A stretch of 64,000 nucleotides of DNA, taken from contig JAHJUE010000010.1 in the NCBI GenBank assembly GCA_018829205.1, forward strand, positions 62,001 through 126,000, in the 5' to 3' direction. Position 1 is the stretch's first letter. Each line of letters begins with the position of its first letter. Origin of the DNA: Bacteroidota bacterium (GTDB lineage Bacteria; Bacteroidota; Ignavibacteria; Ignavibacteriales; Melioribacteraceae). The translations under genes were made by a program, and so were the position numbers. This document shows, piece after piece, positions 20,154 to 61,451 of this stretch. The notes under the pieces are model-generated. The model was not told the DNA's origin and searched no databases. It worked only from the letters and a program-made list of their open reading frames with translations.

Positions 20154-21905
20154 TTAAAAGAACCCTCCGCTTGATTGCGAAAAGAAATTCTGACTGGATA
20201 ACATGCTTATAAGCTGCATCTGCAATTTTTCATATTGACTTCTTAAATTACTGGCGCTTTTTTCAATACTGTTATTAATTGAGGTAATTCTATCGCCAAT
20301 ATATTTAAGATTTTTATCATAAGACGACTTCATATTCGCAATTGTGCCGTTAGAACCAAGATACGCATCAACCGTATTATATAAAGTGTTAGCAATTCCG
20401 TTTTCCGAGTTAAAAAGGTCCGATACCTGACTAGGGGTATTTGAAATAGCATTTTCCAATTTTGAACTATCTGAAACAGTTAGTCCCAAACTTGGGTCAA
20501 ATGAAATCCCAACTTCAGATAAATAACTAAGTTTGTCATCAGTTAAACCTTCTACTTTTGACATGACAGTTTTTGAGAGTTTGTTCATTAATGAAAGCGC
20601 AGAAGTATCACCCGCAAAAATTCCTCTTCCAAGAGAATCAGAAGTAAACCGGTTTTTTATATAAGTATAAGAATCGTTGAATTTTTTTACAAAATCTTCA
20701 ATTTTGCCCTTAATTGCGTCTTTATCGATTTTCACAGCAACACTTACATCATTATCCGTTGCTTCCATAACTGATTTAAGGTCAAAAGTTACATTTGTTA
20801 CAAGATCATCAACAGAGTTAGAATTACGCTGAATATTTATTCCGTTAAACTCTAACTTAGCGTTTAATTCATTATTGGATGAACTCACTGCCGAATATTT
20901 GAAACCTGCATCGTCATCCCCGATATTTTGTGTACGATTAGTCAAAATCGAACTTGTTAATCCGACAAAATCGAGCGCCGAACCGGAAATATCCGACATA
21001 ATTAGTCTGTTGTCATAACCGGATTCTTTAGCTGTAAATGATAATTTGGAATTTCCGGTAGTAGGAGAAAATAATGAAGCGTTAACTAAAGCGGCGGTTG
21101 ATTTTTCATTTTCAACATCAATACCAAGAGTACTTAGCAAATTTCCCGTATCACCGGTTTGTTTGATGGTGATATATTGATCTTTGTCGTCTAAAGTTAA
21201 CTTTAATGAAACATTTGAACCGTCGACAACTTTTTCAGCAGTAAGTCCGCTTGTATTTCCATTAATCTGCTGCACGAGATCTTCAATGACTGTATCATAA
21301 TTTTGATCTGTATAGTCATATGAAATTGTTGTTTCTATTCCATTAATATCCAGCGTAAATTCACCAGCACCTGTATATGTGTTGCTTGAAACCAATGAAT
21401 TTGAATCAATAACAGCATAATCGTCTTTAATTGCTTCTGAAATTTTTGTCATAATTGTGTCATTTGTTTCAGAATCAGTTAAATCGATATCAACAGTACC
21501 TGTATAATCGCCACTTGAAAACTGCACCGTATGAGTTCCTGACATAGAAGCGACAGATGTATCGGAGGCCATTGTATTAGAAAGAACCAAATCGCTTTTC
21601 GCGAGCTGATTTACACGTAACGAATAAGAACTAACAGCCGCGTTTTTACTTGCAGTTGCAGAAAGAAAGTCATTTGTCGGGAAAGAAGTTTTTCTGGAAT
21701 TAAATAAGGAGCTGCTTGTAGAAACCTTTAAATCTGATACAATAGTTTTAAGAGATCCTAGCTTTGAGCTTAAATCGCTCCATGCGGTATTCAGCTGATT
21801 ATACTTATCTTTTCTGCTTTCAAGAGGGTATATTCTCTTGTTCTGTTCAGAAATAGAGTAACTATTAATAAACTGATTTATACCCGATGTTGAAAGAATA
21901 TCCAT
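20154..21905 (-). CDS. fliD: Flagellar filament cap protein FliD
   Basis: FliD caps the filament tip and helps flagellin monomers fold into place. The 583-residue protein has the FliD N-terminus (INQFINSYSISEQ, then the LNTAWSDLSSKLGSL helix), the SYSLRVNQLAKSDLVLS strand typical of FliD_N, repeated beta-rich middle domains, and a C-terminal coiled coil ending in LRSQYEKLQMQLISMLSSQ. It lies 12 bp after fliS and is followed directly by its presumed chaperone. Confidence 0.95.
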   Translation of the reverse strand: MDILSTSGINQFINSYSISEQNKRIYPLESRKDKYNQLNTAWSDLSSKLGSLKTIVSDLKVSTSSSLFNSRKTSFPTNDFLSATASKNAAVSSYSLRVNQLAKSDLVLSNTMASDTSVASMSGTHTVQFSSGDYTGTVDIDLTDSETNDTIMTKISEAIKDDYAVIDSNSLVSSNTYTGAGEFTLDINGIETTISYDYTDQNYDTVIEDLVQQINGNTSGLTAEKVVDGSNVSLKLTLDDKDQYITIKQTGDTGNLLSTLGIDVENEKSTAALVNASLFSPTTGNSKLSFTAKESGYDNRLIMSDISGSALDFVGLTSSILTNRTQNIGDDDAGFKYSAVSSSNNELNAKLEFNGINIQRNSNSVDDLVTNVTFDLKSVMEATDNDVSVAVKIDKDAIKGKIEDFVKKFNDSYTYIKNRFTSDSLGRGIFAGDTSALSLMNKLSKTVMSKVEGLTDDKLSYLSEVGISFDPSLGLTVSDSSKLENAISNTPSQVSDLFNSENGIANTLYNTVDAYLGSNGTIANMKSSYDKNLKYIGDRITSINNSIEKSASNLRSQYEKLQMQLISMLSSQNFFSQSSGGFF

Positions 21906-21917
21906 AAAATTACTTTC

Positions 21918-22262
21918 TTATTTATCTGCTGTTCTAAATACTGTTAACCATGTTTCGCGTAAATCGGATAGAATATTCACAACTATATTAAAATTTTTCT
22001 GTCTCATTTGTTCTTGACAGAACTGGTATAATTTCATCAAACCAATAGAAATTTTCTTTGTTTCTTCAGTATCAAAATTAAGAGCATTTATAAGTGCCGA
22101 AAGAGCGTTGTTAGTTTTAGCAAGATCGCCGCGTTTTGAATTTACAATAGCAAAGTCATAAATTTTCAACAATAGTTTTTTAGGATCGGCGTCAAGAATT
22201 TCTTTTACAAGATAGGCATTTGCTCTGTTTGAAGATCGTGAGTATGATTGAGAATTATACAT
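21918..22262 (-). CDS. fliS: Flagellin chaperone FliS (copy 1)
   Basis: FliS binds the flagellin C-terminus and prevents early polymerisation. The 114-residue protein has the expected pattern: ANAYLVKEILDADPKKLLLKIYDFAI near the N-terminus, AKTNNALSALINAL in the middle, and a C-terminal DLRETW helix. It is clearly paralogous to the protein at 23538-23879. It follows flagellin copy 1 but is separated from it by a good terminator hairpin, so its level may depend on read-through. Confidence 0.92.
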   Translation of the reverse strand: MYNSQSYSRSSNRANAYLVKEILDADPKKLLLKIYDFAIVNSKRGDLAKTNNALSALINALNFDTEETKKISIGLMKLYQFCQEQMRQKNFNIVVNILSDLRETWLTVFRTADK

Positions 22263-22287
22263 GATTTATCCCGAATTCGTTTTTTAT

Positions 22288-22320
22288 AAAAAGCTCTCCC
22301 GGATAAACCGGAAGAGCTTT
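22288..22320 (-). terminator. Intrinsic terminator/attenuator after flagellin copy 1
   Basis: On the minus strand AAAGCTCT(T)CCGG pairs with CCGG(G)AGAGCTTT across a TTTAT loop, directly followed by TTTT. It lies between flagellin and fliS. It would produce abundant monocistronic flagellin mRNA with partial read-through into fliS-fliD-flgM. Confidence 0.8.
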
Positions 22321-22340
22321 ATGTAAATGAACCTTGTAAA

Positions 22341-23210
22341 TTAACCGAGTAATTGTAATACTTGCTGTGGTGCAAAGTTCAATTGAGAAAACATAGCTGT
22401 CGCAGCTTGACCAAGAATACTTGATCTTGTAGCATTTAACTGTTCGAAAGCCATGTCAGCGTCGAATAATCTACTTATACTTGATTCTGCATTTGCGATA
22501 GAAGTGTTTAAGGTATCTTCTTTTATGTCAAGACGTTGAGTGAAGTTACCAATTTTTCCTAACGATGTTGATACCGCTGATTTCAAGTTTGTTAATGCTG
22601 TTTGTAATCCCGCAACTGAAGCGGCAGAACCGCCAACAGATGCTAAAGTACCGGCAGAAACACTAACGAAGCTTGAAATTGAAGCAGAAACATTTGTTCC
22701 ATAACCACCGTTTGCGGAACTTGCCAATGAAGAAGCAAAGTCAAGTTTCAATGTATCGGTAGATTCGCCAACTTGGAATGTGAATCCGGCACCAGCAGCA
22801 GAGAATAACAATTGGGTATCGTTGAATTTTGTGTTCTTTAAGATGTCATGCATTTCGTTTGCAAGAGCAGCAATATCATCTTTAAGAGCTGTACGATCTG
22901 TTGTAGGGTTAGTAGCATCAGAAAGTTTACCCTCAATCTTGGTTAAAAGATCGTTAATACCCATAAGAGCTCCTTCACTTGTAGCTAACATGCTTTTGGC
23001 AGAAGCTATATTTGATTGTGCTCCTTTCATTACAGATACTTTTCCTTTAAGAGAAGTTCCGATGTTGAATCCGCTTGTGTCGTCTGCAACACTTAAAATT
23101 CTCTTGCCAGATGCCAATCTTAACTGTGATTTTGCAGTCGCTTGATTAGCTTTGTTGAGCATATTATATGCTTGCAACGCATCTGAATTAGTGTTTACTC
23201 TGAATCCCAT
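22341..23210 (-). CDS. fliC: Flagellin (copy 1, σ28-promoted)
   Basis: Filament subunit of 289 residues. The N-terminal D0/D1 helices contain ANQATAKSQLRLASGKRIL and VADDTSGFNIGTSLKGK; the C-terminal ones contain NFTQRLDIKEDTLN and LFDADMAFEQLNATRSSILG, ending FAPQQVLQLLG. The middle is short (about residues 140-205) and rich in Ser, Gly and Ala, without large outer domains; such surface serines could carry O-glycans (inference). It is about four-fifths identical by eye to copy 2. Its ATG lies about 80 bp below a near-perfect σ28 promoter, with GGAGG just upstream. Confidence 0.97.
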   Translation of the reverse strand: MGFRVNTNSDALQAYNMLNKANQATAKSQLRLASGKRILSVADDTSGFNIGTSLKGKVSVMKGAQSNIASAKSMLATSEGALMGINDLLTKIEGKLSDATNPTTDRTALKDDIAALANEMHDILKNTKFNDTQLLFSAAGAGFTFQVGESTDTLKLDFASSLASSANGGYGTNVSASISSFVSVSAGTLASVGGSAASVAGLQTALTNLKSAVSTSLGKIGNFTQRLDIKEDTLNTSIANAESSISRLFDADMAFEQLNATRSSILGQAATAMFSQLNFAPQQVLQLLG

Positions 23211-23287
23211 TTTATACCTCCATGTAGTTTGTTATTATAATTTACCAAGTATCCTTACTTGATATTATTAGTTAATTTACACTTGTA

Positions 23288-23314
23288 TTATCGGCTGTCC
23301 TAAAAAAAAGTTTA
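23288..23314 (-). promoter_or_regulatory. σ28 (FliA) promoter of flagellin copy 1
   Basis: Minus strand: TAAA at -35 (23314-23311), a 15-bp spacer, and GCCGATAA at -10 (23295-23288). This is an exact match to the σ28 core consensus in both boxes and spacing. The predicted start point is near 23280, giving a leader of about 70 bases. Confidence 0.92.
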
Positions 23315-23484
23315 TAGTAAAAATTCATTTTGTTTTCCATTTTTAATTCTTCTATTGACAACCAAATACATAATCGTGCATTAGGTTAAGAAGTTTAGTA
23401 CAAATTTTAAGAGTGTTGTTAGAGGTGTGAATTTTAATTGAAATAAAGAAGTTTTTATGTGACGTATACTAAATCTGTTTAATG

Positions 23485-23515
23485 TTAACCCGGTTTCTTT
23501 ATGAAACCGGGTTAA
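23485..23515. terminator. Strong 13-bp hairpin behind fliS copy 2
   Basis: TTAACCCGGTTTC and GAAACCGGGTTAA form a perfect stem with a TTTAT loop, 23 bp past the fliS stop. The minus-strand 3' flank is not U-rich, while the plus-strand flank is (TTATTGTTTTAT). It still is the best candidate for ending the flagellin copy 2-fliS unit. Confidence 0.65.
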
Positions 23516-23537
23516 TTATTGTTTTATAAAACAACTA

Positions 23538-23879
23538 TTACAAACCCGCGCTGAATACTGTCTGCCAGGTATCTCTTAATCCTGTTAGTATTTGAAGAAC
23601 AACTTCATTATTCTTTTTTCTCATTTCTTCTTGCGAGTATTGATAAAGCTGAAGAAGACCAAGCGACATTTCTCTTGCTTCGGGATTATCAAAATTTAAC
23701 GCCTTAATTAATTCGCTCAATGCTTTGTTAGTATTTTCCACATTTCCTTTTTTGCAATTAACAATTGCAAAATCGAATACTTTAAGAAGCAGCTTCTGGG
23801 GGGTTGATTCCAGAACTTCTTTCACCAAGTAAGCATTAGCGCGTGATTGGTCATTTGCTAATTGTGTTGAAGTATTCAT
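23538..23879 (-). CDS. fliS: Flagellin chaperone FliS (copy 2)
   Basis: A 113-residue paralogue of the FliS at 21918-22262, sharing ANAYLVKEVLESTPQKLLLK, the VNCKKGNVENTNKALSEL segment, and a C-terminal LRDTWQTVF. It lies 34 bp after flagellin copy 2 and is presumably its dedicated chaperone. A strong hairpin follows. Confidence 0.92.
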   Translation of the reverse strand: MNTSTQLANDQSRANAYLVKEVLESTPQKLLLKVFDFAIVNCKKGNVENTNKALSELIKALNFDNPEAREMSLGLLQLYQYSQEEMRKKNNEVVLQILTGLRDTWQTVFSAGL

Positions 23880-23913
23880 TTTATTTTTCCGTTATTATTT
23901 TTTAATTATTTTA

Positions 23914-24783
23914 TTAACCGAATAACTGCAATACCTGCTGCGGTGAAAGATTAAGCTGCGACAGCATCGCTGTTGCGGCTTGTGACTTAATACTTCCTCT
24001 AGTTGCGTTTAACTGCTCCATTGCCATATCAGCGTCAAATAAGCGGCTTACGCTTGCTTCAGCGTTTGCAATTGATACGTTTAATGTATCTTCTTTAATA
24101 TCAAGTCTCTGAGTAAAGTTACCTATCTTACCTAAAGATCCTGAAACGGCAGTCTTTAAATTTGAAAGAGCTGTCTGAAGTCCGGCTATAGTTCCCGCAC
24201 TTCCGCCGACACTTGCCAATGTTGCAGCTGCGACATTTACAAAACTGCTGATTGATTCAGAAATTCCAACGCCGTATCCGCCTGTGGCTGTGCTTGCCAA
24301 TGAAGAAGCAAAATCGAGTTTTAATGTATCGGCCGCTTCTCCGACCTGGAATGTAAATCCCGCGCCGGCTCCTGAGAATAATACGCTGGTGTTATTATAT
24401 TTAGCTCCCAGCAAGGTATCTTGTAATTCTTTCGCTAAAGCTCTTATATCATCCTGAATAGCGGTTCTGTCTGTTGTAGGGTTTGTCGCATCTGAAAGTT
24501 TACCTTCAATTTTTACGAGAAGGTCGTTAATACCCAGCAAAGAACCTTCAGCCGTTGAAAGTAATGTTTTTGCCGCGGCAACGTTTCCTTGCGCGCCTTT
24601 CATTACGGAAATTTTTCCTTTTAATGAAGTGCCTATGTTAAAACCTGAAGTATCATCTGCTACGCTTAAGATTCTTTTACCTGAAGCGAGTCTTAATTGT
24701 GCCTTGCTGCTTTCCATGTTAGCTTTTGCCAATTCATGATACGCCTGCAATGCATTTACGTTTGTGTTTACTCTAAAGGACAT
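23914..24783 (-). CDS. fliC: Flagellin (copy 2)
   Basis: A 289-residue flagellin of the same length as copy 1, with the same conserved termini (QLRLASGKRIL and VADDTSGFN at the N-terminus; LFDADMAMEQLNATRGSI and LSPQQVLQLFG at the C-terminus). Differences are concentrated in the Ser/Ala/Gly middle. It lies only 23 bp below the 1702-residue glycosyltransferase gene, with GGAGG as ribosome-binding site, and I find no σ28 promoter upstream. It is therefore probably transcribed with the glycosyltransferase, unlike copy 1. Confidence 0.96.
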   Translation of the reverse strand: MSFRVNTNVNALQAYHELAKANMESSKAQLRLASGKRILSVADDTSGFNIGTSLKGKISVMKGAQGNVAAAKTLLSTAEGSLLGINDLLVKIEGKLSDATNPTTDRTAIQDDIRALAKELQDTLLGAKYNNTSVLFSGAGAGFTFQVGEAADTLKLDFASSLASTATGGYGVGISESISSFVNVAAATLASVGGSAGTIAGLQTALSNLKTAVSGSLGKIGNFTQRLDIKEDTLNVSIANAEASVSRLFDADMAMEQLNATRGSIKSQAATAMLSQLNLSPQQVLQLFG

Positions 24784-44821: not shown

Positions 44822-47800
44822 TTATAAATTTACGGTTGACGCAGTCCATTGCGCATTCTTCCCATTTAAACTTTGTTCGGCAACTGTTTCTACCTTACTT
44901 AACAATTCTTTTATTTTCTGAAGAGATATATTCCCTTCTTCGGTTTTACCGTTTTTTTCAAATTCATTAACACAATTTGTTAATTCCTCTTTCGCAAGTT
45001 CATATTCATTATCATGAATATTAATAAATCCTCGACGGAAATATTTTTCTATTCTGCTACCCGATATAGGGAATTCCAATGATCTTTTTTTAACGGATTC
45101 CCCTTTCAGCCAGATTTCATCCGGATCGGCACCCCATTTCTCTACAAACAAATTATTATTTCTATTTAACAATTTTTCGTATTTATCATTTCCGTCGGCT
45201 TTAAAACTCTTAGATCCGTAATGATGTATGAACACATCTTTGGCTATGAATGTTTTGTAACCTGCAAGCTGAACCCTTAAACAATAATCGTCATCTTCAT
45301 AATTGCCTGGGGAAAACCTTTCATCAAGTCCGCCTATTTTTTCAATCACTTCTTTTTTAATTAAGGTACAAAGAAACGCGACACGCGGGAATTCCCAATA
45401 TTGGTTTTGATTTTCAAAGCGGATTTTTTCAGCGTAAGTTTTCATTTCATCAATTGTTTGGTAATTAGCATTTTTATCAACCTGAACACCGCTTACAGAG
45501 TTTGATATTCCGCTTATTATGCCGGCTTTTTCGTTATTGGCGGCAATATCAATAAATCGATTGAGCCAGCCTTTATTTACTATAATATCATTGTTTGCAA
45601 TTACAATATATTTGCCCTCTGAAAATTCAATGCCTTGATTAACTGCTTTCGGGAAACCAAGATTCCGAGTGTTAGAAATAGTTTTTACATTCGGTTTTTG
45701 GATTTCCAAATTTCTTAAATACTTTTTTATTTCATCAGAGCTGTTATTGTCGACAATTACAAGTTCAAAATTACCTTTAGTATTTTCATAAATTGAATTG
45801 ATTGTTGATTGTGTAGTTTCAAGCTGATTATAAACAGGTATAATTATCGACGTTTCAATCTGAACCGAAATTTTCCGTGTCTTAAATAAATATTGATAAT
45901 GCTGCGAGTTCTCCTGCAGGGAAGATACATCATAGCCGCTGTTTTTAAATGCTTGCATTAAGTCGGAAGGGAATTCAAATTTAGCATCCATCGTAGCTTT
46001 AACATCAATTACATTAAATCCTTCATTGGTAAACAATTCAGCCGCGCTTTTCAATGTGAAAAATCTAAGATGTGTTTTATCCAGCAGTCCGGCATTTTCA
46101 TAATCCCATTTGCCCTCTATCAAATTTTTAATAACAGACCAATGACGGACATTCGGAATGCTTGCGACTATTTCTCCATTATTCCTAAGTTTTGTTTTAA
46201 TAAGCTTAATAATTTTATAAGGATCAACAAGATGTTCAAGAACATCGGCGAATATGATTGCATCAAAATAATTATTCGGAAGCTGCAGTATTGCGTCTTC
46301 AACATTGCCCCATATAACATTATCTAATTTTGCCGCTGCTCTTTTAGCCGCTTCTTCGAATAATTCGATTCCCCAAACTTCGGCATTCAGTTTTTGCTTT
46401 AGTTCATATGCCATTACGCCGCTGCCGCATCCTACATCCAGTATTCTTTGAGAATTCGGATTTACAAGTTCCTGCACCTCGGGTCTGTTATATTCATAAT
46501 ATGCGCCTACCGATTCGTCCATTTTATTAATAATATTGGAATCGGTTGTATATAATTTGTATGTATCTACCCCGTAATTATTTTTAAAGTATTTGAATTT
46601 ATCGACTATATAGTCGGGGTAATCTTTCTCTTCATTCCAGCCGAGATGATACCCGACAATGTTTTTCGCGAAACCGACTTTGCCGCCGTTTGCTCTAATT
46701 TTTTCGCATGTTTCCCAGTCTGTTGTGTAAGAGAAATTAAAATATTTTCTCTTAATTGCCTGCATTACTGTTCCGACATTGGACAAAGTAATGTCATCAT
46801 TAAATTTCGATTTTTCGCTTATGTAAACATCCGCCATTTTTTCAGGCTTATTAGAGGGATCGAGGTTTAAAGCAATCAATCCCATATCAGGGTTTTGTTT
46901 ATGTAGATCAACTAATTTTTCGAGCCAGCATTTCTCATCCAATTTTGGGACAAGAATATCGGGATCGCAAACAATAAAAGGGTCGGAAGTTGTAACATTA
47001 ATTCCTTTTTGGAAAGCTGCCGTCCATTCATTAGATCCATTAAGAATAAGATCATCGTAAAGAATTTCAGTAAGTTTTAAATAATTGGCAAACTCTTCGC
47101 CGCTTTTGTTGTCAACTATTATAAGTCTATAATTGTATTTTGTATTATGGATTAAATGGTTAATTGTCTCATGAAAATATTTTAGACGATCATGCGTTAA
47201 AAATACAATATCAATAGGGCGGCAGTCATTTATAATTTTTTGTTTAGCAACAAAATTTTTATATGTATTAATTAGAACATTGGTTTCAAAACTGCTTCTT
47301 GAAAAATTGCCAAGTTCTATTCCAGATTGATTATAATAATATAGTCCTAGTATTTGATTAACTCTTTTTAATTTGCTGCCGTTTACAAAAACCATACGGC
47401 TCCAAAATTCAAAATCGCCCGAGGATTTGTATGCCTCATTAAAATATCCAATGTAATTATGAACTTCGGCGCGCCACATTGGTTGCGGCCCCATAAAACA
47501 ACCTTCGTGCATAATGCCGGGTTTAAAATCCGGACGAATAATTTCTTTATCAATTATAGCGTTTTTAAACTGCTGGTTAGGTGTGTTTGTTAAATAAAAA
47601 TCGGAATAGACAAGATCAACGTCTGGGTTTTTATCAAGTTCATTTTTTAATATTTCCAAAGCTTCTGGATGATGCCTGTCGTCTGTGTTTGCGTTTGTTA
47701 AATATTTTCCCGAAGCGGCTTTTACTCCCCTGTTCCATGCAGAATAAATACCTTCTCGGTTTTCTGTTTTAATATATTTTATATTTTGAAATTTTCGCTG

Positions 47801-47980
47801 GAACTCATTAATAATAACTTCTTCATTTTGCTGCGAGCCTGAATTAATAACAAGAATTTCCAATCCGCCTTTTTTATAAAGGGTTTGATTTGTTAAGTCA
47901 ACCAAACACCCTTCAATAAACAGTTCTGAATTGTAGGTTGAAACTATAGCCGAGACTTCGAATTTGGAATCATTATTCAT
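44822..47980 (-). CDS. Fused GT2-GT2-methyltransferase-GT2 protein
   Basis: 1052 residues with four catalytic-looking domains. GT2 (about 5-230): VSAIVSTYNSELFIEGCL, NTDDRHHPEA. GT2 (about 255-480): IDIVFLTHDRLKYFHETI, VCDPDILVPKL. SAM methyltransferase (about 505-690): RILDVGCGSGVMAYEL, DAIIFADVLEHL. GT2 (about 710-970): SIIIPVYNQLETTQSTI, VDNNSSDEI, NNDIIVNKGWL, and GNYEDDDYCLR. A helical, TPR-like tail follows. First gene of its operon, downstream of promoter D and the palindrome at 48142. Such fusions would make one enzyme build and methylate a short oligosaccharide. Confidence 0.9.
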   Translation of the reverse strand: MNNDSKFEVSAIVSTYNSELFIEGCLVDLTNQTLYKKGGLEILVINSGSQQNEEVIINEFQRKFQNIKYIKTENREGIYSAWNRGVKAASGKYLTNANTDDRHHPEALEILKNELDKNPDVDLVYSDFYLTNTPNQQFKNAIIDKEIIRPDFKPGIMHEGCFMGPQPMWRAEVHNYIGYFNEAYKSSGDFEFWSRMVFVNGSKLKRVNQILGLYYYNQSGIELGNFSRSSFETNVLINTYKNFVAKQKIINDCRPIDIVFLTHDRLKYFHETINHLIHNTKYNYRLIIVDNKSGEEFANYLKLTEILYDDLILNGSNEWTAAFQKGINVTTSDPFIVCDPDILVPKLDEKCWLEKLVDLHKQNPDMGLIALNLDPSNKPEKMADVYISEKSKFNDDITLSNVGTVMQAIKRKYFNFSYTTDWETCEKIRANGGKVGFAKNIVGYHLGWNEEKDYPDYIVDKFKYFKNNYGVDTYKLYTTDSNIINKMDESVGAYYEYNRPEVQELVNPNSQRILDVGCGSGVMAYELKQKLNAEVWGIELFEEAAKRAAAKLDNVIWGNVEDAILQLPNNYFDAIIFADVLEHLVDPYKIIKLIKTKLRNNGEIVASIPNVRHWSVIKNLIEGKWDYENAGLLDKTHLRFFTLKSAAELFTNEGFNVIDVKATMDAKFEFPSDLMQAFKNSGYDVSSLQENSQHYQYLFKTRKISVQIETSIIIPVYNQLETTQSTINSIYENTKGNFELVIVDNNSSDEIKKYLRNLEIQKPNVKTISNTRNLGFPKAVNQGIEFSEGKYIVIANNDIIVNKGWLNRFIDIAANNEKAGIISGISNSVSGVQVDKNANYQTIDEMKTYAEKIRFENQNQYWEFPRVAFLCTLIKKEVIEKIGGLDERFSPGNYEDDDYCLRVQLAGYKTFIAKDVFIHHYGSKSFKADGNDKYEKLLNRNNNLFVEKWGADPDEIWLKGESVKKRSLEFPISGSRIEKYFRRGFINIHDNEYELAKEELTNCVNEFEKNGKTEEGNISLQKIKELLSKVETVAEQSLNGKNAQWTASTVNL

Positions 47981-48246: not shown

Positions 48247-51200
48247 TTAAACAGAAATTGTTTTTAAATTATCGGCCGCGACTTCATTCTGCGGATCAAT
48301 TTTAAGTACAAGATTTAAAGTTCTAATAGCTGATTCGTTTTCGCCCAATATTGATAAAACTACGGCAAGATTGTTTAACGCTTCTGTATCCGACGGATTT
48401 TTATTTATAACTTTCTGCAATAGTTGAATTGCGTTTGTATAATTTCCGCTTTTTATTGATTCTTCAATTTCTTGATTTTTCATTTCATCGTTCCTTGTTA
48501 TTTCATTTTTATTTAATTCGTTTCCATCAATGTTATTATTGATATGTATTTTTTTATAAAGCTCAAGATACTTTTCAGCTTGAATTAAAAGAGTAAATTT
48601 GTCTCCCGCAGTTTTTACGGAATTCTGTGTAAGAATCTTTTTATCCTGCCGCAGACACCATGTAATTCCGTTTGATAAATCAGCAGCATTTTTTTCTTCT
48701 GCGATATACCCGTTTAATTTATGCTGAATCATATCCGGAATTCCGCCAATGTTAAATCCTACAACAGGAGTTCCGCATGCAAGTGACTCGACAACAACCA
48801 AGGGAAGATTGTCTTCGAGCGAAGGAATTACAAACACATCGGCAAGCGAATAAATTTTCGCGAGTACTTCAGGGTCATTTACAGCTCCGAAGTTTAAAAT
48901 TTTATATCCGCTAAGCACATTCTGGAAATCGCCAATATTCCCGAAAACAGCGAGATAAATTTCTTCTTTAAAATCTGTTTTATTAAAATCAGTCAACGCT
49001 TTTACTAAATATTCAAAGCCTTTACGTTTGTTGTTATACGTCGCGCCGAAAAGTATAATTTTGGCATTTGCGGGAACACCAATTTCTTTTCTATTCAGTT
49101 CGTCATTTTGAGGTTTAAAAACATCAAGTTCAAATCCGTATGGAATAACTTCTCTTTTATATTTTTTGAACAAAGAACTTTGAGACGCTTGTTCGCCGAG
49201 CCATTTGCTGGGAGTTACAACCGTAATATTTAAATCATCATAAATAGATTTTTTGTATTTCCAAATTTGTGATGAAATATCGTTTTCATCTTTTGAGCCA
49301 AGCTGCGGGCATGCACCGCATTCTTCCGTAAATTTTCGGCATGTATCTGCATAATGGCATCCCCCGGTAAAAGCGTTCATATCATGCAAAGTCCAGACAA
49401 TTGTTTTGTCTTTAAACAATTCTTTTACATCTTCATAATTAATCATTCCAGCGACCCAGTGCAGGTTTATAATATCAGCTTCTATTATTTCTTGAACTTC
49501 GCTTAAATCAACATTTGATTCCGGCGTTGAAAATATTTCTATTTCTTTCGGACGTTCAGGAAAACTGTTCATTATTTGATAAAATCTCTGCCACATTAAT
49601 TGATTTTTTTGTGAAGAGTAAATTTCATTTAAAAGTGTTTTATGTACGCTGTAATCATCCGGCACTGCAAGAACTGAATTATCATTTTTAGTTTTATTTA
49701 AAACTATTAATTTTGAGTCAACGCCGAGTTCATTTAAACCCTTATTTAAAAGATACGCAGCCGTTCCCGCACCGCCGTTATCCTGTGTGCAGATGTGAGC
49801 TACCTTCAACCCAGTACTTGTTTTATTTTCCAAAGGCAGCTGGACAGGTAAATCATAAAAACTTTTAAATACTTCAGAAACCTTTTCATCTAAAAATACT
49901 TTTTCGGGAAATCTTGTTGCTTGTTTCTGCGCTGTTTCGGAATTAAATTTATCCGTCGCGCCGCAATGTACTCCTGTTCCGTCCATACCTATATTTTCAA
50001 TATGAGAGTCAATAGGGTAAATATAATAACCTTTATTTGCATAAACTGTTAACAGCCAAGGCATAGTCCACACATCTTTTAAATTTCCGTTCAGCATATC
50101 AAGCAGCATTACGGGAACATCGCTTCCGGCTTGAGTCAAATCAATTCCGCTGTCTAAAATATTTTTTGTCATGGAACGCAGATCATCATTTTTCATCTGC
50201 CATTTCGATTTCCACGTAGCCCAGCCCCAGCTTCCTATTCTCGGTGAGAAGTATAAATCGTAATTATAATTATCACGAATCTCTTTTGGTATTTGAACAG
50301 AGTAACCGCTTATTCCAAAAACAGATTTTTCATTTTCATATTTATTCAAACAGTCGTTCATAAAATTGAAGAAATGTTTTTGCGGAACGCAATCGTCTTC
50401 AAGCAGAACAAGTTTATCATGTTTTTCAAAAACTAAATTTACAGCGTTCACTATTGATTTTGCCAATCCTTGATTTTGCGTTTGATAAACTTTAACAGGG
50501 TTTGTCCAGTTAATTTCTTCAATGAATTTCCGCGTTTTAATTACACCCTCAATGTGCTCTTGAGTTTTTGGGGCATCTGAAAAAACGTAAAGATTTTTAA
50601 TATTATGTTTTCTAAGAGCATTTAAAACTTTTTTTGTATGCTCAGGGCGGTTATATGTAATTAGAATTACTGGATATTCAAATGAATCTTCACTTTGCTT
50701 GCATAATTTTTGCTGAAAGTCCTTTGTTCTTATAAAAGAATATTCATTTCCCAAAGGAGAAATTGAAAATATATCATAACCATTATTAATCAATTTCTTG
50801 ATTATAACTCTTGAAGCATCTTTACCAACACCTTCAAACCTATCATGGAATTCAACAAGAATTTGCGATACATTTATTTTATTCTTTAATATATCTTCAA
50901 GTACAGAATATTCAGCACCTTCAATATCCATCTTCAGTAAGTCTATTTTACTGTGCTTCAATTCCTTCATAATAGAAGAAATAGATTTTACTGGTACTTC
51001 AATAAAATTCATGGAAGTAATCGATCTATAAAGCAGTGTGTGTGAAACATGATCCGGGTTTTCGGGTGGATAAAATTTAACTGTTCCGTTAAAATCAGCA
51101 ATGCCGTAATCATACAGTTTAAAACTGTCGTTTATATTTTGTTTTTTCAGCCAGTCAATTGATTTTGGAGTAGGGTCAAAACCATGGACAGTTACTCCAT

Positions 51201-54200
51201 ATTTTTCTATTATAGATAAATCAAATGAAATATCTTCTCCAAGTCCGAATGAATAAACAATACTATCCCGATCTAAATTAAATGGAGAAATAAACCAACC
51301 ACCGTATTCTGTCCCGTGAAATTCTTTAGCAACCGAGGTATTAATTTTGTACCCGTTCATAAAATTAAAACTGGGTGCAGGCAAAGCTTTACCATTATTT
51401 ATCTTCCCGAATTCTTCTACAACATAGTTGAATTGCCATATTTCGGGATGCATCCATTCGAGGTATTTGTTCATTACCTCATACCTGCTAAGTTTGGATT
51501 GATTTTTATCATCACTCGCCGGATCATGATATATAACCGCTTCAGGCCAATAGATTATATTAAAGCTTTTTGTTTGTTTATATAGTCGAAAAGATAATTC
51601 AACACCTTCGTGCCCGAATAGAAGCGGATTCATTCCCCCTAACTTAAGATAAACATCTTTTCTAAAAGCAGAGTTGCCTTCTGTTGTAATACTTGTAGGA
51701 ATAGGTTCATCGCCGAGATCATAACACAAGGGGATTATTTTTACTTCTTTGCTTCTCGGAACTACCCTCCCTTTAACACCTTTAACATCCTGCGCTTGAA
51801 AGGGCACATAAATTTTTTCCAGATAATTACCGGGAACAACGGAATCATCGTCCACAAAAACTAATATGTCGCCTTTTGCGAAATGCGCTCCTATGTTTCT
51901 ACCTTCTGCAGGATTTATATTTTCAGGAAGCACGATATAAAGAAGAGGCATTTGCAATAAATTGGGAACTGCTTCTTCATTGCCTCCGTTATCAATTACA
52001 ATTATTTCAAAATTATCTCTTTTATTTTTCATAATTGATTCTACACATTCCAGTAAACTTTTCCCTGTTTTATATGCTACTATAATTACAGAAATTTCAG
52101 GCGAAGCATTATCACGTTTATCATGTTTCGGCAAAGAATTATAATCAAAATGATTTTTAAAGAGATTTATAAATTTTTCTGCGTTTGTGAAATCATATTT
52201 ATTTAAACATTCTCCTGCTTTTTTATAATTATCGAGGGCAATTTTATTTTTTAAACCGCACGTTTCTTTTCTTCTGCTTAACGCATTTATTTTTGCCTTC
52301 AACATAGTTTGAATACTCAATTTTCTGTTATCACTAACATGAGAAATAGAACAAGCAAGTTCACGGTAAAGGTAAAGCGGCTTATCAATAAATTTAAGTT
52401 CTCCCACTTCTTCCATCTTGTAAGAAATATCTTTATCTTCTGCGTGGAGAATTGTTATATCGTATTGAGCGCTGCGCAAATAGTAATCTAATTTGAAAGT
52501 GCGGAAATGGCTGACCGTATCTGTATCAAGATTTGTTTTGTTTTTCTGAACCTCAGCACAGTAACCTAATTTTTGCGGCTTTAGATTTTCATCGCAGTAA
52601 AGAAACTGTGAATATATAAAACCCGCACCGGAATTTTCCTGATGCGCGTTATACATCGTTTCAACTGCTTCGGGAACAAGTGCGTCGTCGCTATCAAGCG
52701 TACCAAAATATTTACTCTTTACTTTACTTATTCCAGTTGTAAGCGCGGTTATATATTTTTTATTTGTCTCGTGCTGAATGAGGATTATTCTTTCATCACC
52801 TAAGTATTTTTTTATTTTGATGACCGAATCGTCTGTCGAGCAGTCGTCCACAATTATTAATTCCCAATTTGCGAAAGTCTGCGCCAAAACTGAGTTTATT
52901 GCTTCTTCTATATATTTGCTGCCGTTATAATTAGCCATTATAATCGAAAACCGAGGGGCATTTTCGTTTTTAAGTTCTTTTTCTTTTACGATTGAATTCA
53001 TATCTGATAAATTCTTTTGAGCTGCTTTGTTTGCAGAATCCAATTTTAAGACAATGTTTGTAATAGCTGATGCTGTATTTTTATCACCTAAATTCATAAA
53101 ACAATCTGCAGCATGATTTAGTGCATTAATATTTCCTGGATGGTGTTTAATATGCTGCACTAATATTTCTGCCGCTTCTTTGAATTTATTTTCATAAATA
53201 AACTTTTGGGCTTCATCAATTGCATTAAATTCAGATTGAGGAAGAACTGTATTTATAAGTTCAACATCCTTTATATCTTTCGCTTCGCCTCTATTTTCTT
53301 TTAAGAGCCTCACAATATTTAATGAAGCAAATTTTACTCCGTTGAAGTAAAAATGATTTTCGGGATTATAAACTATATTGTCAAAATTTGTAGGATAATA
53401 TTTAAGCTCCGAATCGTGTGCATTTATATCATCATTAATTTTTGTAAGATTTGATTTCTCTGCTTTTATATAATCTAGATCGTTCGCGTCACGCAAACCA
53501 TATAAAGCCAAAACGGTGCTGCCTGTCAGGCACAGATCCTCATTATTAATACCTTTTTCTGATGTAATTTTATCAAAGTAATCAAACAGTGATTGGAATT
53601 TTGCAAACGTGTTCAATTTCACATTGTTTAAAAAATGGACACTGTTCTTGTTTAATAATGCTGAAGTTATCCTAATTGTTTCTTCGTGTGTATCGTTTAT
53701 GTGAACAGAATGTTTTGCGATATTATAAATTTTTCTGATCTTTTCTTTAAGTTCAATAATATTAACACCGAAAAAGGGTTTGAACAAAAAGAATCTCAAA
53801 GGTTCATCTGTTTTAAAACAATAATTTGCCTTGCTTTTAGCGCCGGAGAAAAAGTTTTCCCATTTACCTAGCCATTCTTCCCCTTTATAAACCTGCATCA
53901 TTAAATAGAGCGGCCCGTTATTTTTTAATTTTAATTCTTTATAATAATATATTTCGCCGGCCTCTTTTAAAATGGGAATTACTTCATCAGTCCTTCCAAC
54001 CGCAGAAGGGAAAAGCATAACCGTTTTCAAATCTTTTATAAGCATGCAGTATTCAAGCGCAATGCTGTCAAGGCTTTCTTCCGACAAACCTTTATTTCTG
54101 AAATAGTTATAATCGTAGAGCCAGCCTTCGTGAGAAAAAGTAAGAGTTGAAACTGTTTTATTATAATAAAGACTCGCAGCTAATCTATGTGCTCCTTCTA

Positions 54201-55587
54201 TCAAACCGTTTTTAAATGAAACCGGAAGCATTGATTTCTCTTCATTAAAGCCTTCATCTTTTATTGAACTGATTGTTTTGTTAAAAGAAATAACAAAAGA
54301 ATCGCGCCCCTTTTTTCCACTTCCGTCTTTTTCATCATGGCCGTTAAAAACACGAATGTGTTCGTCGTATAAATTTGAAGCCCAATCTGTATTAATGCTT
54401 TTATCAAAATATTTTACATAAATATATTTTGCTATTACATCAATTCTTCTGTGGTTGATAAGTGTAATTGGCTTTACTCTGTTTAATACGGAACCGTTCT
54501 CTGTGTAAAACAATTCAGTGAAATGCGGGTTGAGTTTGTTAAAGACAGATTCTTTATTTAAATAAACAGAAGGAGTAAAGCTTTCCGAGTTAAGATAATT
54601 GTCAAGGTATTCAACAGCTTTATAAATATCCTCGCAATATTTTTTATTAGTAAAAGTATAAAATTTTTCCGAGCCTAGAAATTCTCTGCCGTTTCTTCTG
54701 TATTCTTCATACTCCTTTGTTTTAATAATAGAAATCATTCGTTCGTATAATTCATCAAACGATTCGAATTTCAGCAAATCTATAAAAGTGTTTTCTGGAA
54801 TAAAATCAATCGAGTCGGGCATGGGAACATAAATTGGCACAGTTCCCGTCGCCATGCTTATTAACGGATCGTAAGTTATATAACCCGGGATTATGCAATT
54901 GTCTATGCAAAAACTATAATAATATTTTGAATAAGTTTCAAATTTATCCGGCGTTGTTCCTTTATATATATTTGTAAAAAATGGATCGTCTCTAGTGTTG
55001 TCGTTCCAGCCGTGACCGAATAAATCTAATAAGTTATCGCCGCGGTTTTCAAAATATCTCATTACTTGTCTTCTAAAGCTGTAAAGTTCTCCTTCTTCTA
55101 TTGAAGTTTTGTTGGAGTGCATTATTAATGCAAGGTTTTCTTTTTTATTGTTTGAGTAATGTTCATATCTTGATAAATCTATGGTAACAGGAAAATGATA
55201 ATGAAAAAATTTTTTGTCTTTTTGGGGGGATGTACTTTCCCACGATAAAATTGCTTTATGAAAGAAGTGTGAGTTCTGTATATAGTCCCAGCCCCATCTA
55301 TTATAAACATAAGGCTCGTGTAAAAAGAAAATAACTCTTGAAGGATCAATCTTGTTGTCATGCATAAATTTAACAGTGCCGGGAGTCGGCTCCTGCAAAA
55401 TCCAAATATCCACTTCACCCATTGAACCGTACATATCAAATGTATTTAAGTTGATATTTCTTTCAGCGAGATATTTTCTCAATGCAATATATCTATCCAA
55501 TACATTATTACTGTTACAATCTGCATTGGCATCGAACATTTTATTTTGCCACCAGCTTCTGTACTCAGTAAAGTATGCTATATTCAT
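48247..55587 (-). CDS. 2446-residue multi-domain glycan assembly protein (GT, FkbM, GT4, TPR)
   Basis: An exceptionally large fusion. In order: a GT10/CgeB-like domain (about 1-330; YITYDPLISMATGTVPIYV); a domain with a ParB-like GAHRLAA motif (about 380-560); a nucleotidyltransferase-like segment (about 685-790; LTGSTVLALYGLRDANDLDY); TPR (about 795-865); GT2 (about 880-1130; IIVDDCSTDDS, DSDDALV); GT2 (about 1165-1390; VDDDSVVPGNYL); FkbM-type methyltransferase (about 1410-1615; DLLKMDIEGAEYSVL); a GNT-I-like GT (about 1640-1880; LLEDDCVPQKHFFNF); GT4 (about 1930-2360; VVVESLACGTPVVGF); and a TPR end. The frame opens at TTG 55599; ATG 55587 is preferred. It is last in the epimerase operon. 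Start and domain edges are approximate. Confidence 0.85.
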   Translation of the reverse strand: MNIAYFTEYRSWWQNKMFDANADCNSNNVLDRYIALRKYLAERNINLNTFDMYGSMGEVDIWILQEPTPGTVKFMHDNKIDPSRVIFFLHEPYVYNRWGWDYIQNSHFFHKAILSWESTSPQKDKKFFHYHFPVTIDLSRYEHYSNNKKENLALIMHSNKTSIEEGELYSFRRQVMRYFENRGDNLLDLFGHGWNDNTRDDPFFTNIYKGTTPDKFETYSKYYYSFCIDNCIIPGYITYDPLISMATGTVPIYVPMPDSIDFIPENTFIDLLKFESFDELYERMISIIKTKEYEEYRRNGREFLGSEKFYTFTNKKYCEDIYKAVEYLDNYLNSESFTPSVYLNKESVFNKLNPHFTELFYTENGSVLNRVKPITLINHRRIDVIAKYIYVKYFDKSINTDWASNLYDEHIRVFNGHDEKDGSGKKGRDSFVISFNKTISSIKDEGFNEEKSMLPVSFKNGLIEGAHRLAASLYYNKTVSTLTFSHEGWLYDYNYFRNKGLSEESLDSIALEYCMLIKDLKTVMLFPSAVGRTDEVIPILKEAGEIYYYKELKLKNNGPLYLMMQVYKGEEWLGKWENFFSGAKSKANYCFKTDEPLRFFLFKPFFGVNIIELKEKIRKIYNIAKHSVHINDTHEETIRITSALLNKNSVHFLNNVKLNTFAKFQSLFDYFDKITSEKGINNEDLCLTGSTVLALYGLRDANDLDYIKAEKSNLTKINDDINAHDSELKYYPTNFDNIVYNPENHFYFNGVKFASLNIVRLLKENRGEAKDIKDVELINTVLPQSEFNAIDEAQKFIYENKFKEAAEILVQHIKHHPGNINALNHAADCFMNLGDKNTASAITNIVLKLDSANKAAQKNLSDMNSIVKEKELKNENAPRFSIIMANYNGSKYIEEAINSVLAQTFANWELIIVDDCSTDDSVIKIKKYLGDERIILIQHETNKKYITALTTGISKVKSKYFGTLDSDDALVPEAVETMYNAHQENSGAGFIYSQFLYCDENLKPQKLGYCAEVQKNKTNLDTDTVSHFRTFKLDYYLRSAQYDITILHAEDKDISYKMEEVGELKFIDKPLYLYRELACSISHVSDNRKLSIQTMLKAKINALSRRKETCGLKNKIALDNYKKAGECLNKYDFTNAEKFINLFKNHFDYNSLPKHDKRDNASPEISVIIVAYKTGKSLLECVESIMKNKRDNFEIIVIDNGGNEEAVPNLLQMPLLYIVLPENINPAEGRNIGAHFAKGDILVFVDDDSVVPGNYLEKIYVPFQAQDVKGVKGRVVPRSKEVKIIPLCYDLGDEPIPTSITTEGNSAFRKDVYLKLGGMNPLLFGHEGVELSFRLYKQTKSFNIIYWPEAVIYHDPASDDKNQSKLSRYEVMNKYLEWMHPEIWQFNYVVEEFGKINNGKALPAPSFNFMNGYKINTSVAKEFHGTEYGGWFISPFNLDRDSIVYSFGLGEDISFDLSIIEKYGVTVHGFDPTPKSIDWLKKQNINDSFKLYDYGIADFNGTVKFYPPENPDHVSHTLLYRSITSMNFIEVPVKSISSIMKELKHSKIDLLKMDIEGAEYSVLEDILKNKINVSQILVEFHDRFEGVGKDASRVIIKKLINNGYDIFSISPLGNEYSFIRTKDFQQKLCKQSEDSFEYPVILITYNRPEHTKKVLNALRKHNIKNLYVFSDAPKTQEHIEGVIKTRKFIEEINWTNPVKVYQTQNQGLAKSIVNAVNLVFEKHDKLVLLEDDCVPQKHFFNFMNDCLNKYENEKSVFGISGYSVQIPKEIRDNYNYDLYFSPRIGSWGWATWKSKWQMKNDDLRSMTKNILDSGIDLTQAGSDVPVMLLDMLNGNLKDVWTMPWLLTVYANKGYYIYPIDSHIENIGMDGTGVHCGATDKFNSETAQKQATRFPEKVFLDEKVSEVFKSFYDLPVQLPLENKTSTGLKVAHICTQDNGGAGTAAYLLNKGLNELGVDSKLIVLNKTKNDNSVLAVPDDYSVHKTLLNEIYSSQKNQLMWQRFYQIMNSFPERPKEIEIFSTPESNVDLSEVQEIIEADIINLHWVAGMINYEDVKELFKDKTIVWTLHDMNAFTGGCHYADTCRKFTEECGACPQLGSKDENDISSQIWKYKKSIYDDLNITVVTPSKWLGEQASQSSLFKKYKREVIPYGFELDVFKPQNDELNRKEIGVPANAKIILFGATYNNKRKGFEYLVKALTDFNKTDFKEEIYLAVFGNIGDFQNVLSGYKILNFGAVNDPEVLAKIYSLADVFVIPSLEDNLPLVVVESLACGTPVVGFNIGGIPDMIQHKLNGYIAEEKNAADLSNGITWCLRQDKKILTQNSVKTAGDKFTLLIQAEKYLELYKKIHINNNIDGNELNKNEITRNDEMKNQEIEESIKSGNYTNAIQLLQKVINKNPSDTEALNNLAVVLSILGENESAIRTLNLVLKIDPQNEVAADNLKTISV

Positions 55588-55611
55588 AATTTTAACCAAA
55601 ATATTTGCGGA

Positions 55612-59597: not shown

Positions 59598-61451
59598 TTA
59601 AAGATGAAAAACAGTAACAAGCCTGTTTTTTAGGTTTTCGATTTTATCGTGGGCGTTTTCTTTTAGTTCTTCGTATTTCTCTTTTCTTTCTGAGTCAAGT
59701 GATGTTATTTTTTTCTCCAGTCCCTCAATGCGGTTTTCAAAACTTTTATCGTACGATTTTAAGCTTTTTTCAGCTTCACTTTTTACCTGCTGAATTTCTC
59801 TTTCTTTATGGTTTTTCAAATACGAAATATCTCTTTGTATCTTTACTTTTTCATTTGTTCTTTCCCAAATTGCCGATGCCGATGAAATAAATGAAATAAG
59901 CAGACCCAACAAAAATGTAACGCCTCCCCATTTAATTCCGGCGACTATTGTTTGTGAAACCATTTCAGCAACGCTTGCTTCGTTTACTGTTTCTAAAAAT
60001 CCGCCTATAAATCCGCCTATAATAAATACTACAAGTGAAATAACCGTATTCAAAACCATTGAATTATTAAAAGCCGAGGAAGGATCAAATTTTTTGATTC
60101 TATCCAAATGTTCCATTCTAAATTCAAGATTTGCTATAGCGTTTTTATGATGCTGGTTTATTTTCTCAATCGTTAATTCCAAATTCTTCTTATACTTAAG
60201 TCGTGTATCCTCAATATCGCTTTTCATTTTTTTAATTGTCTCTATACTATCCTCTATACCGAAATCATAAATAACTAGCTGCGATTCAATTGTTTCTAAA
60301 TGATTTTGCTCAATCTGCGCAGATATTTGCTCAATAATTTTGTCAAATTTCTGCATTAAAAAATTTCCCGCGGTATAACTTAGTATGTTTCTGCTATCTT
60401 TAAAATGCACAAGAAATGTTTCTAGAAAAATTAGTTCATTCTTAATTGTATCGTTATAATATTTCTGCATTCTTAAGTCGGTTAAATTCTGCATCATTTT
60501 ATTAAGCTTATGCAGAATTTTATCCTCCCCCGAAAATTCCGAAGATATTATCATTTCAATTTGCGGCAGCATATCGGCAAATCGAATTTCGGCAAAAACA
60601 TTATAAACGTTTGCGTTTATAAAAAAGTGGTTAAACAGCGGCAGACTATTATTTTCAATTGCATAACCGAATCTGTTTTTATCAAACACTATAATTTTAG
60701 TTAATAGTTCCTGCGTTCTTTCTAAATTGCCCATTATTTTTTCGGAAAGTGCGTTATAAAATACTGCCGACATTCCGTTATGTTTATATTGCTGGGCGAT
60801 TTCAAATTTTGCGTTTGCGCTGTCAATATTACCTAATTTGAATTCTATAAATCCGTGATACAAATTAATAAGGTAAATAAACTCATTTCTAAGTTCCTGG
60901 GTTATTTCGGATGTTTCAATAACCTGAAGCGATTTTTCTAGGAGATTTTCTGCCTTCTCGGGCGAGAATATTCTTTTATCAAATGCGTATATAGTGGCGT
61001 TTAATAAATACTTTAGAAAATTATTAGTATTTATATTTCTTTCTATTAGATTAATTGTTGATAGGGCAAAATACTGCTTCTCTTTTTCGTTGGTTTGAGT
61101 CAGCCATTTTAAATAAAACTTTTTAATTTCCCCGTAATTTCCGCCGGCTGTTAAAACGTTTCTGGACGATACTCGAAATGATTCTTCGGCTTTATATAAG
61201 TTGTTGGAATCTAAAATCCAATAATATGGAGCAGAGTCAATTCTTATAAAGAATTCGTTGATTAGTTCCGGCAAATTAAATGCCGCATGTCGAGCGCTTT
61301 CTTTAAGTAAGTCTAAATATTGAATATCATATTTGACGTAATCAAGAAATTTGTCTTTAGCGTAGCTCTTAAACTTAGCCGCGCCAAGCTCTCGGGCAAG
61401 CTGCTCTTCACCGCCGTCCCCATGTAGGATTCTTAGCGTCTCTGCATTCAT
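59598..61451 (-). CDS. Unknown coiled-coil membrane protein
   Basis: 617 residues; I recognise no family. The N-terminal 340 residues are helical with TPR-like stretches (about 195-270, such as YLINLYHGFIEFKLGNIDSANAKF). A coiled coil spans about 380-460. Two membrane helices lie at about 470-490 (TVISLVVFIIGGFIGGFLE) and 505-535 (GVTFLLGLLISFISSAS). A C-terminal charged coiled coil follows (about 540-610). Both ends would be cytoplasmic. It is separated from the glycan operon by 593 bp, so no functional link is implied. Confidence 0.8.
   Translation of the reverse strand: MNAETLRILHGDGGEEQLARELGAAKFKSYAKDKFLDYVKYDIQYLDLLKESARHAAFNLPELINEFFIRIDSAPYYWILDSNNLYKAEESFRVSSRNVLTAGGNYGEIKKFYLKWLTQTNEKEKQYFALSTINLIERNINTNNFLKYLLNATIYAFDKRIFSPEKAENLLEKSLQVIETSEITQELRNEFIYLINLYHGFIEFKLGNIDSANAKFEIAQQYKHNGMSAVFYNALSEKIMGNLERTQELLTKIIVFDKNRFGYAIENNSLPLFNHFFINANVYNVFAEIRFADMLPQIEMIISSEFSGEDKILHKLNKMMQNLTDLRMQKYYNDTIKNELIFLETFLVHFKDSRNILSYTAGNFLMQKFDKIIEQISAQIEQNHLETIESQLVIYDFGIEDSIETIKKMKSDIEDTRLKYKKNLELTIEKINQHHKNAIANLEFRMEHLDRIKKFDPSSAFNNSMVLNTVISLVVFIIGGFIGGFLETVNEASVAEMVSQTIVAGIKWGGVTFLLGLLISFISSASAIWERTNEKVKIQRDISYLKNHKEREIQQVKSEAEKSLKSYDKSFENRIEGLEKKITSLDSERKEKYEELKENAHDKIENLKNRLVTVFHL

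Follow-up and report, generated by a model that had tools for sequence, protein, structure and literature searches.

A giant multidomain glycan protein with a putative three-domain nucleotide-handling cassette, encoded near flagellin genes in a Bacteroidota bacterium

The giant frame and its domains

The window (the whole 64,000-nucleotide stretch of DNA that we analyzed) carries on its minus strand a frame at 48247..55587 that spans 2446 codons without the stop and begins with an ATG at 55587, a TTG at 55599 being a possible earlier start. Given the base composition of the window, a stop-free run of 2446 codons has a chance of ~10^-88, and the frame lies inside a single contig (G000:C3) of a genome of 4.59 Mb in 39 contigs; the frame is real, and we regard it as established. 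Its predicted domains, in the order of the chain, and the neighboring genes that concern us here are as follows.

54553..55587, minus strand: GT10/CgeB-like domain, residues 1-345 (PF00852, E=5.8e-7 on the segment; Pfam span 187-299)
54037..54531, minus strand: cassette domain 1, predicted ParB/sulfiredoxin-like, residues 353-517
53638..54036, minus strand: cassette domain 2, predicted nucleoside diphosphate kinase (NDK) fold, residues 518-650
53203..53637, minus strand: cassette domain 3, predicted AbiEii/MenT/ANT-like nucleotidyltransferase (NTase), residues 651-795
52972..53202, minus strand: TPR block 1, residues 796-872 (PF14559, E=3.6e-6)
52198..52971, minus strand: GT2 domain a, residues 873-1130 (PF00535, Pfam span 881-1031)
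51388..52170, minus strand: GT2 domain b, residues 1140-1400 (PF13641 at 1163-1275)
50713..51387, minus strand: FkbM-type methyltransferase, residues 1401-1625 (PF05050, E=3.4e-15, span 1462-1604)
49843..50712, minus strand: GNT-I/GT13-like segment, residues 1626-1915 (weak; POMGnT1 in the PDB, E=1.2)
48508..49842, minus strand: GT4 domain, residues 1916-2360 (PF00534, E=4.9e-24, span 2163-2316)
48250..48507, minus strand: TPR block 2, residues 2361-2446 (PF14559, E=1.9e-15, span 2378-2437)
44822..47980, minus strand: downstream, a second multidomain glycan enzyme, a GT2-methyltransferase-GT2 protein of 1052 aa
56952..59004, minus strand: upstream sugar-nucleotide genes, a DegT aminotransferase and an NDP-sugar epimerase/dehydratase
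20154..24783, minus strand: FliD and two flagellins

The domain list proposed in the first-pass annotation proved essentially correct, with Pfam returning GT10, two GT2, FkbM, GT4 and a C-terminal TPR domain in the order given there, and this anatomy is established. Both of the TPR blocks it named were recovered, the C-terminal one by Pfam and the first (~797-853) by a Pfam scan of the segment alone, while its GNT-I-like domain is plausible, with a weak PDB match and an EDD-type motif that we read from the sequence; many stand-alone relatives of this segment (~1626-1915), of ~300 aa, exist. At least four glycosyltransferase domains share one frame (GT10, two GT2 and GT4 by Pfam, and, weakly, the GNT-I-like segment), and there is good support for reading the product as one multidomain polypeptide that builds glycans. 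GT2 domain a matches a chondroitin synthase in the PDB (E=6e-18), and the FkbM-type domain exceeds the TIGR01444 cut-off. The GT10-like domain reads CIDN...TYD in place of the usual FENS...TEK, and since these residues are lost, its donor or activity may differ and the donor may not be GDP-fucose.

That all of these domains form one chain of 2446 residues, as had been claimed, agrees with a frame that is open throughout, has no internal stops and lies within one contig. A scan of in-frame starts for signs of several separate genes found a Shine-Dalgarno-like site at M2369 alone, near the C-terminal TPR block, which is one weak internal candidate. As for a gene-fusing assembly error, four joins turn up again elsewhere: G535 has module-TPR-GT2, G056 has a stretch similar to TPR-GT2-GT2 (in a 3071-codon frame, L091, G056:C23, 2968-12183, larger than the giant frame of the window), G007 has GNT-I-GT4 (56% identity) and G034 has GT4-TPR (in a 2329-codon frame). 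The joins GT10-module, GT2-FkbM and FkbM-GNT-I found no independent support among the genomes compared, and this speaks for an assembly artefact or an annotation fusion of several genes, as does the presence elsewhere in the same genome of GNT-I-like, FkbM and GT4 relatives as separate adjacent genes (G000:C22:130437-133399). Against such a fusion stand the open frame with at most one internal Shine-Dalgarno-like start, the four recurring joins and the frequent occurrence in this bacterial order of frames of 2260-3071 codons that combine glycosyltransferase, methyltransferase and TPR domains; we consider it highly improbable. Because giant mixed frames are common in the order, one continuous chain is likely and not exceptional. 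The base composition of the cassette is not distinct from the remainder of the giant frame.

The cassette at residues 353-795

It had been remarked that residues 380-790 have no obvious role in known glycosyltransferases, and indeed this region is not explained by those enzymes. Residues 353-795 alone (hereafter the cassette) match no significant Pfam or PHROG family, and PDB sequence-profile searches with 4 and with 39 cassette sequences returned no credible match; a LacI match in the PDB profile search, at E~1, was rejected as chance. We aligned 39 members of the cassette family and built an AlphaFold model from this alignment, with a mean pLDDT of 91.9. For the cassette as a whole, NDK filled the Foldseek list; a viral structure library gave whole-length matches to giant-virus proteins, of which two are named as glycosyltransferases (E down to 9e-17). 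By the model and the fold searches, the cassette comprises predicted ParB/sulfiredoxin-like, NDK-fold and AbiEii/MenT/ANT-like NTase domains in tandem. The ParB-like and NTase-like segments had already been claimed and were borne out, the former tentatively by PHROG ParB-like matches and the latter by an NTase fold match; the NDK-fold domain between them had been missed.

Of the three assignments, the ParB-like one is the least secure. Domain 1 carries a G-x-H-R motif (EGAHRLAA here, NGAHR in most relatives) whose His and Arg are invariant in all 39 members, and in this motif, of the G-x-x-R type, as well as in its weak profile matches, it resembles ParB-CTPases, sulfiredoxin and SerK. ParB-like PHROG matches were obtained for five of the 39 members (best E=1.3e-5), and the profile alignment to the order's own ParB was weak, with the register as expected; a Pfam ParB match to the domain was not found. 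Unlike in a ParB partition protein, no HTH DNA-binding domain follows, and the NDK-like domain comes directly next.

Domain 2 (model residues 166-297) superimposed on the NDK structure 3pj9_C with a VIA Z of 12.2 and an rmsd of 2.8 over 117 residues, and all of the top fold-search rows for it were NDKs or NDK-domain proteins. When the domain was aligned by profile with NDKs from the same order, IRKIY...SVHINDTHEET fell on IRKLY...NIVHGSDSDENA, with a score that was weak, though the best of the three families tried. In this weak register VHIND falls on the VHGSD of NDK, so that the candidate catalytic His would be His629 and the candidate active-site Arg would be Arg618. Where NDK has its NxxHGSD motif the cassette reads HSVHIND, by the same weak alignment, with the His kept in 38/39 members and the NDK Arg in 39/39. 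The KPDA Lys of NDK is, in that register, replaced by Phe or Trp in 38/39, and the NDK-like domain may therefore not be an ordinary phosphotransferase. Compared with NDK (3pj9, 2nck), the domain shares the predicted fold and, in the weak register, the candidate catalytic His together with one Arg and one Asp, but it has lost the KPDA Lys, has HIND for HGSD, is ~14% identical and stands between two other domains.

Domain 3, folded alone, gave an AF2 pLDDT of 91.1 and VIA Z scores of 10.2 to TM1012, 9.8 to MenT1 and 8.9 to ANT(2'')-Ia, against 3.7 or less to unrelated structures; LicD/FKRP-type transferases were absent from its fold-match list. Its motifs are GS-x(12)-D703-L-D705 and KDxxD (D771, D774). 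The first aspartate of the DxD is kept in 38/39 members and the second in 39/39, both Asp of KDxxD (motif IV; D419 and D422 in the numbering of the model) in 39/39, and K411 of the Lys motif (motif III; same numbering) in 38/39; the conservation of these putative active-site residues is established. The GS-x(12)-DLD and K...R...KDxxD motifs we take to be those of the AbiEii/MenT enzymes, and the GS...DLD and K...R...KDxxD pattern is also visible in the order's AbiEii proteins. While the domain shares its fold, DxD and KDxxD with AbiEii, MenT and ANT(2'')-Ia (8an4, 6y5u, 4wqk), it differs from them in belonging to a glycan enzyme instead of a toxin or a resistance gene, and in its third carboxylate, for which we saw no invariant acid; most cassettes have a conserved His and then Asn/Asp at the likely place.

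In a homologue at L030 (2172-3641), the NDK His and Asp are gone together with one NTase Asp while the ParB-like motif is retained, and a shortened Paracoccus copy lacks most of the NDK-like and NTase domains. The joint loss, in just these two cases, hints that the NDK and NTase sites may work together.

Occurrence and shuffling of the cassette

As a lone gene, the cassette measures about 390-500 aa across bacteria and viruses, and its existence as an independent gene is established. Full-length relatives turned up in a protein search of plasmids: each is a lone gene of 483-493 aa that carries the label 'hypothetical protein' and lies in a polysaccharide locus, in Ilyobacter polytropus (ILYOP_RS13690, WP_013389097, strain DSM 2926) and in Jannaschia. 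The same search gave the shortened Paracoccus copy, and Halopseudomonas oceani has a homologue as well. With the alignment as query, bacterial genomes yielded nine long and five short matches, and viral contigs 44 loci. Most cassettes of uncultured marine viruses are single genes of 388-433 aa; four non-redundant viral records have the cassette fused after an N-terminal stretch with the look of a GT2. A single viral cluster (n=1), read gene by gene, contained GT2, CgeB-like, GT10-like, flavin amine-oxidase-like and TylF-type methyltransferase genes. The T4-type Gp23 capsid gene was present in 5/20 viral records, the four largest among these; three separate queries brought up no cassette relative among the named phage records. 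Wherever we read the context gene by gene, the cassette sat in polysaccharide or glycan clusters, and 10 of its 36 immediate upstream neighbors had a GT2 match.

Within the order, only three of 164 genomes contained a match (one of them weak), and in a sample of the phylum two of 395; being this rare, the cassette is not a core part of the order's giant glycan systems. In a phylogenetic tree the cassette of the window grouped with those of G535 (of the same family) and Smithella (97/89), all three located inside long chains, and the viral cassettes lay to the same side of a branch whose support was modest. Its patchy occurrence suggests that it spread by horizontal transfer.

The order of domains differs between the long chains: GT10-cassette-TPR-GT2-GT2-FkbM-GNT-I-GT4-TPR in the window, FkbM-cassette-GT2-GT2-TPR-GT2 in Smithella, FkbM-cassette-GT2 in G326 and, as read from the sequence, GT10-like-FkbM-cassette-TPR-GT2 in G535. 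These differences bear on the proposal, made in the first-pass annotation, of an assembly line reminiscent of polyketide synthases, which we take here as an ordered one whose domain order would set the order of sugars. Many catalytic domains in a single chain are what such a machine would have, yet the same parts stand in different orders in the relatives and as separate genes on C22, and the Pfam matches of the giant protein include no carrier domain. We find this proposal very unlikely, and the giant chain is better read as an assortment of freely shuffled modules.

Proposed role in flagellar glycan building

FliD and the two flagellins lie ~23-28 kb from the giant gene, and with flagellins nearby the giant protein probably serves flagellar glycosylation; it is from this gene proximity that we infer flagellin as the target. 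Beyond the 1052-aa protein downstream there are TPR proteins and then more glycosyltransferases. A precedent for TPR fused to a flagellin glycosyltransferase is FlmG of Caulobacter crescentus, which combines an N-terminal TPR/flagellin-binding domain with a glycosyltransferase in cytoplasmic flagellin glycosylation (PMC7591256), although FlmG has 596 residues and one catalytic domain. Other multidomain glycan enzymes are known as well. WsaE, from the synthesis of the S-layer glycan in Geobacillus stearothermophilus, is soluble and likewise has a methyltransferase and two glycosyltransferase domains in one chain, but consists of these three domains only, with neither a ParB/NDK/NTase cassette nor TPR (PMC2943079). 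Chlorovirus PBCV-1 A111/114R, which acts on a surface glycan, likewise has several glycosyltransferase domains in one chain (three, of ~300 residues), but is viral and has neither a methyltransferase nor a nucleotide cassette (PMC7826918). The giant chain is a variation on such enzymes.

Our preferred reading, to which we assign a probability of roughly 0.4, is that of a modular glycan protein of a flagellar island with an NTP-consuming cassette that adds a phosphate-linked group to a sugar hydroxyl of the glycan. The protein would be cytoplasmic and part of a flagellar glycosylation island; its four or five glycosyltransferase domains would add sugars, the FkbM methyltransferase would methylate one of them, and the TPR blocks would probably hold acceptor or partner proteins. 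The mobile three-domain cassette would consume NTPs and modify a sugar hydroxyl with a nucleotidyl or phosphoryl substituent while the glycan is being built. ANT(2'')-Ia transfers AMP onto an antibiotic at a sugar hydroxyl, and since the NTase domain shares its fold, addition of a phosphate-linked group is the most economical reading; the three nucleotide-binding folds beside glycosyltransferases likewise indicate NTP-dependent glycan tailoring. Since tRNA or proteins are the substrates of related NTases, the protein itself might instead be the target.

The main rivals to glycan tailoring are regulation and donor regeneration. A regulatory cassette would sense NTP or put NMP on glycosyltransferases or flagellin and have no part in the structure of the glycan. 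AbiEii/MenT-type NTases modify macromolecules, which favors this possibility. So does the action of ParB folds as NTP switches, described in a 2025 survey of ParB-fold fusions (PMC12704722). The cassette is, however, an independent gene in glycan clusters of unrelated bacteria and viruses, with FkbM and GT2 as recurrent partners, and biosynthetic tailoring fits this better; we hold regulation to be unlikely. Alternatively, the cassette might make or regenerate sugar donors in place, with the ParB-like domain as a kinase, the NTase producing the activated donor and the NDK-like domain converting NDP to NTP. All three domains are nucleotide-handling folds beside or inside glycosyltransferases, and ParB-fold kinases such as SerK and SbnI are known (PMC12704722). 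This reading is set back by the loss of the KPDA Lys and by the normal NDK present in those genomes of the order that were searched. AbiEii/ANT-fold NTases, moreover, are not known to serve as sugar pyrophosphorylases, and we consider donor supply even less likely than regulation.

Glycan tailoring may also extend beyond this genome. Tentatively, and with somewhat less confidence than for the giant protein, we propose that the cassette represents an undescribed enzyme family found in bacteria and in marine T4-like viruses, and by fold also in giant viruses, whose members would couple two nucleotide-using sites and place nucleotidyl or phosphoryl groups on surface or virion glycans. Within the open-access literature and the named databases searched it looks like an undescribed family: we found no open-access paper naming the ParB-like/NDK-like/NTase architecture. 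In its main text, the 2025 survey does not list NDK, nucleotidyltransferase or glycosyltransferase domains among the partners of ParB folds, and the survey was built on PF02195, which the cassette does not match (PMC12704722). A conserved nucleotide-handling cassette that has neither a Pfam name nor a PDB sequence match, and whose cultured homologues are labelled 'hypothetical protein', suggests a so far unknown way of decorating surface glycans, and its presence in glycan clusters of uncultured marine viruses, together with the fold match to giant-virus glycosyltransferases, suggests that these share a glycan chemistry to which current annotation is blind. Cultured hosts, such as Ilyobacter polytropus, make direct testing feasible.

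Some further genes were recorded along the way. In the window, a TPR-rich protein of 1702 aa that has a GT9-like match at its C-terminal end (24807-29915) lies directly upstream of a flagellin gene, a GH20 hexosaminidase (34731-36317) is found among the glycosylation genes, and a 617-aa protein that has no Pfam match (59598-61451) combines a membrane-like hydrophobic stretch with charged coiled-coil-like segments. Elsewhere, L086 (3267-10139) encodes a chain of 2290 aa with radical SAM, polysaccharide pyruvyl transferase, GT4 and TPR domains.
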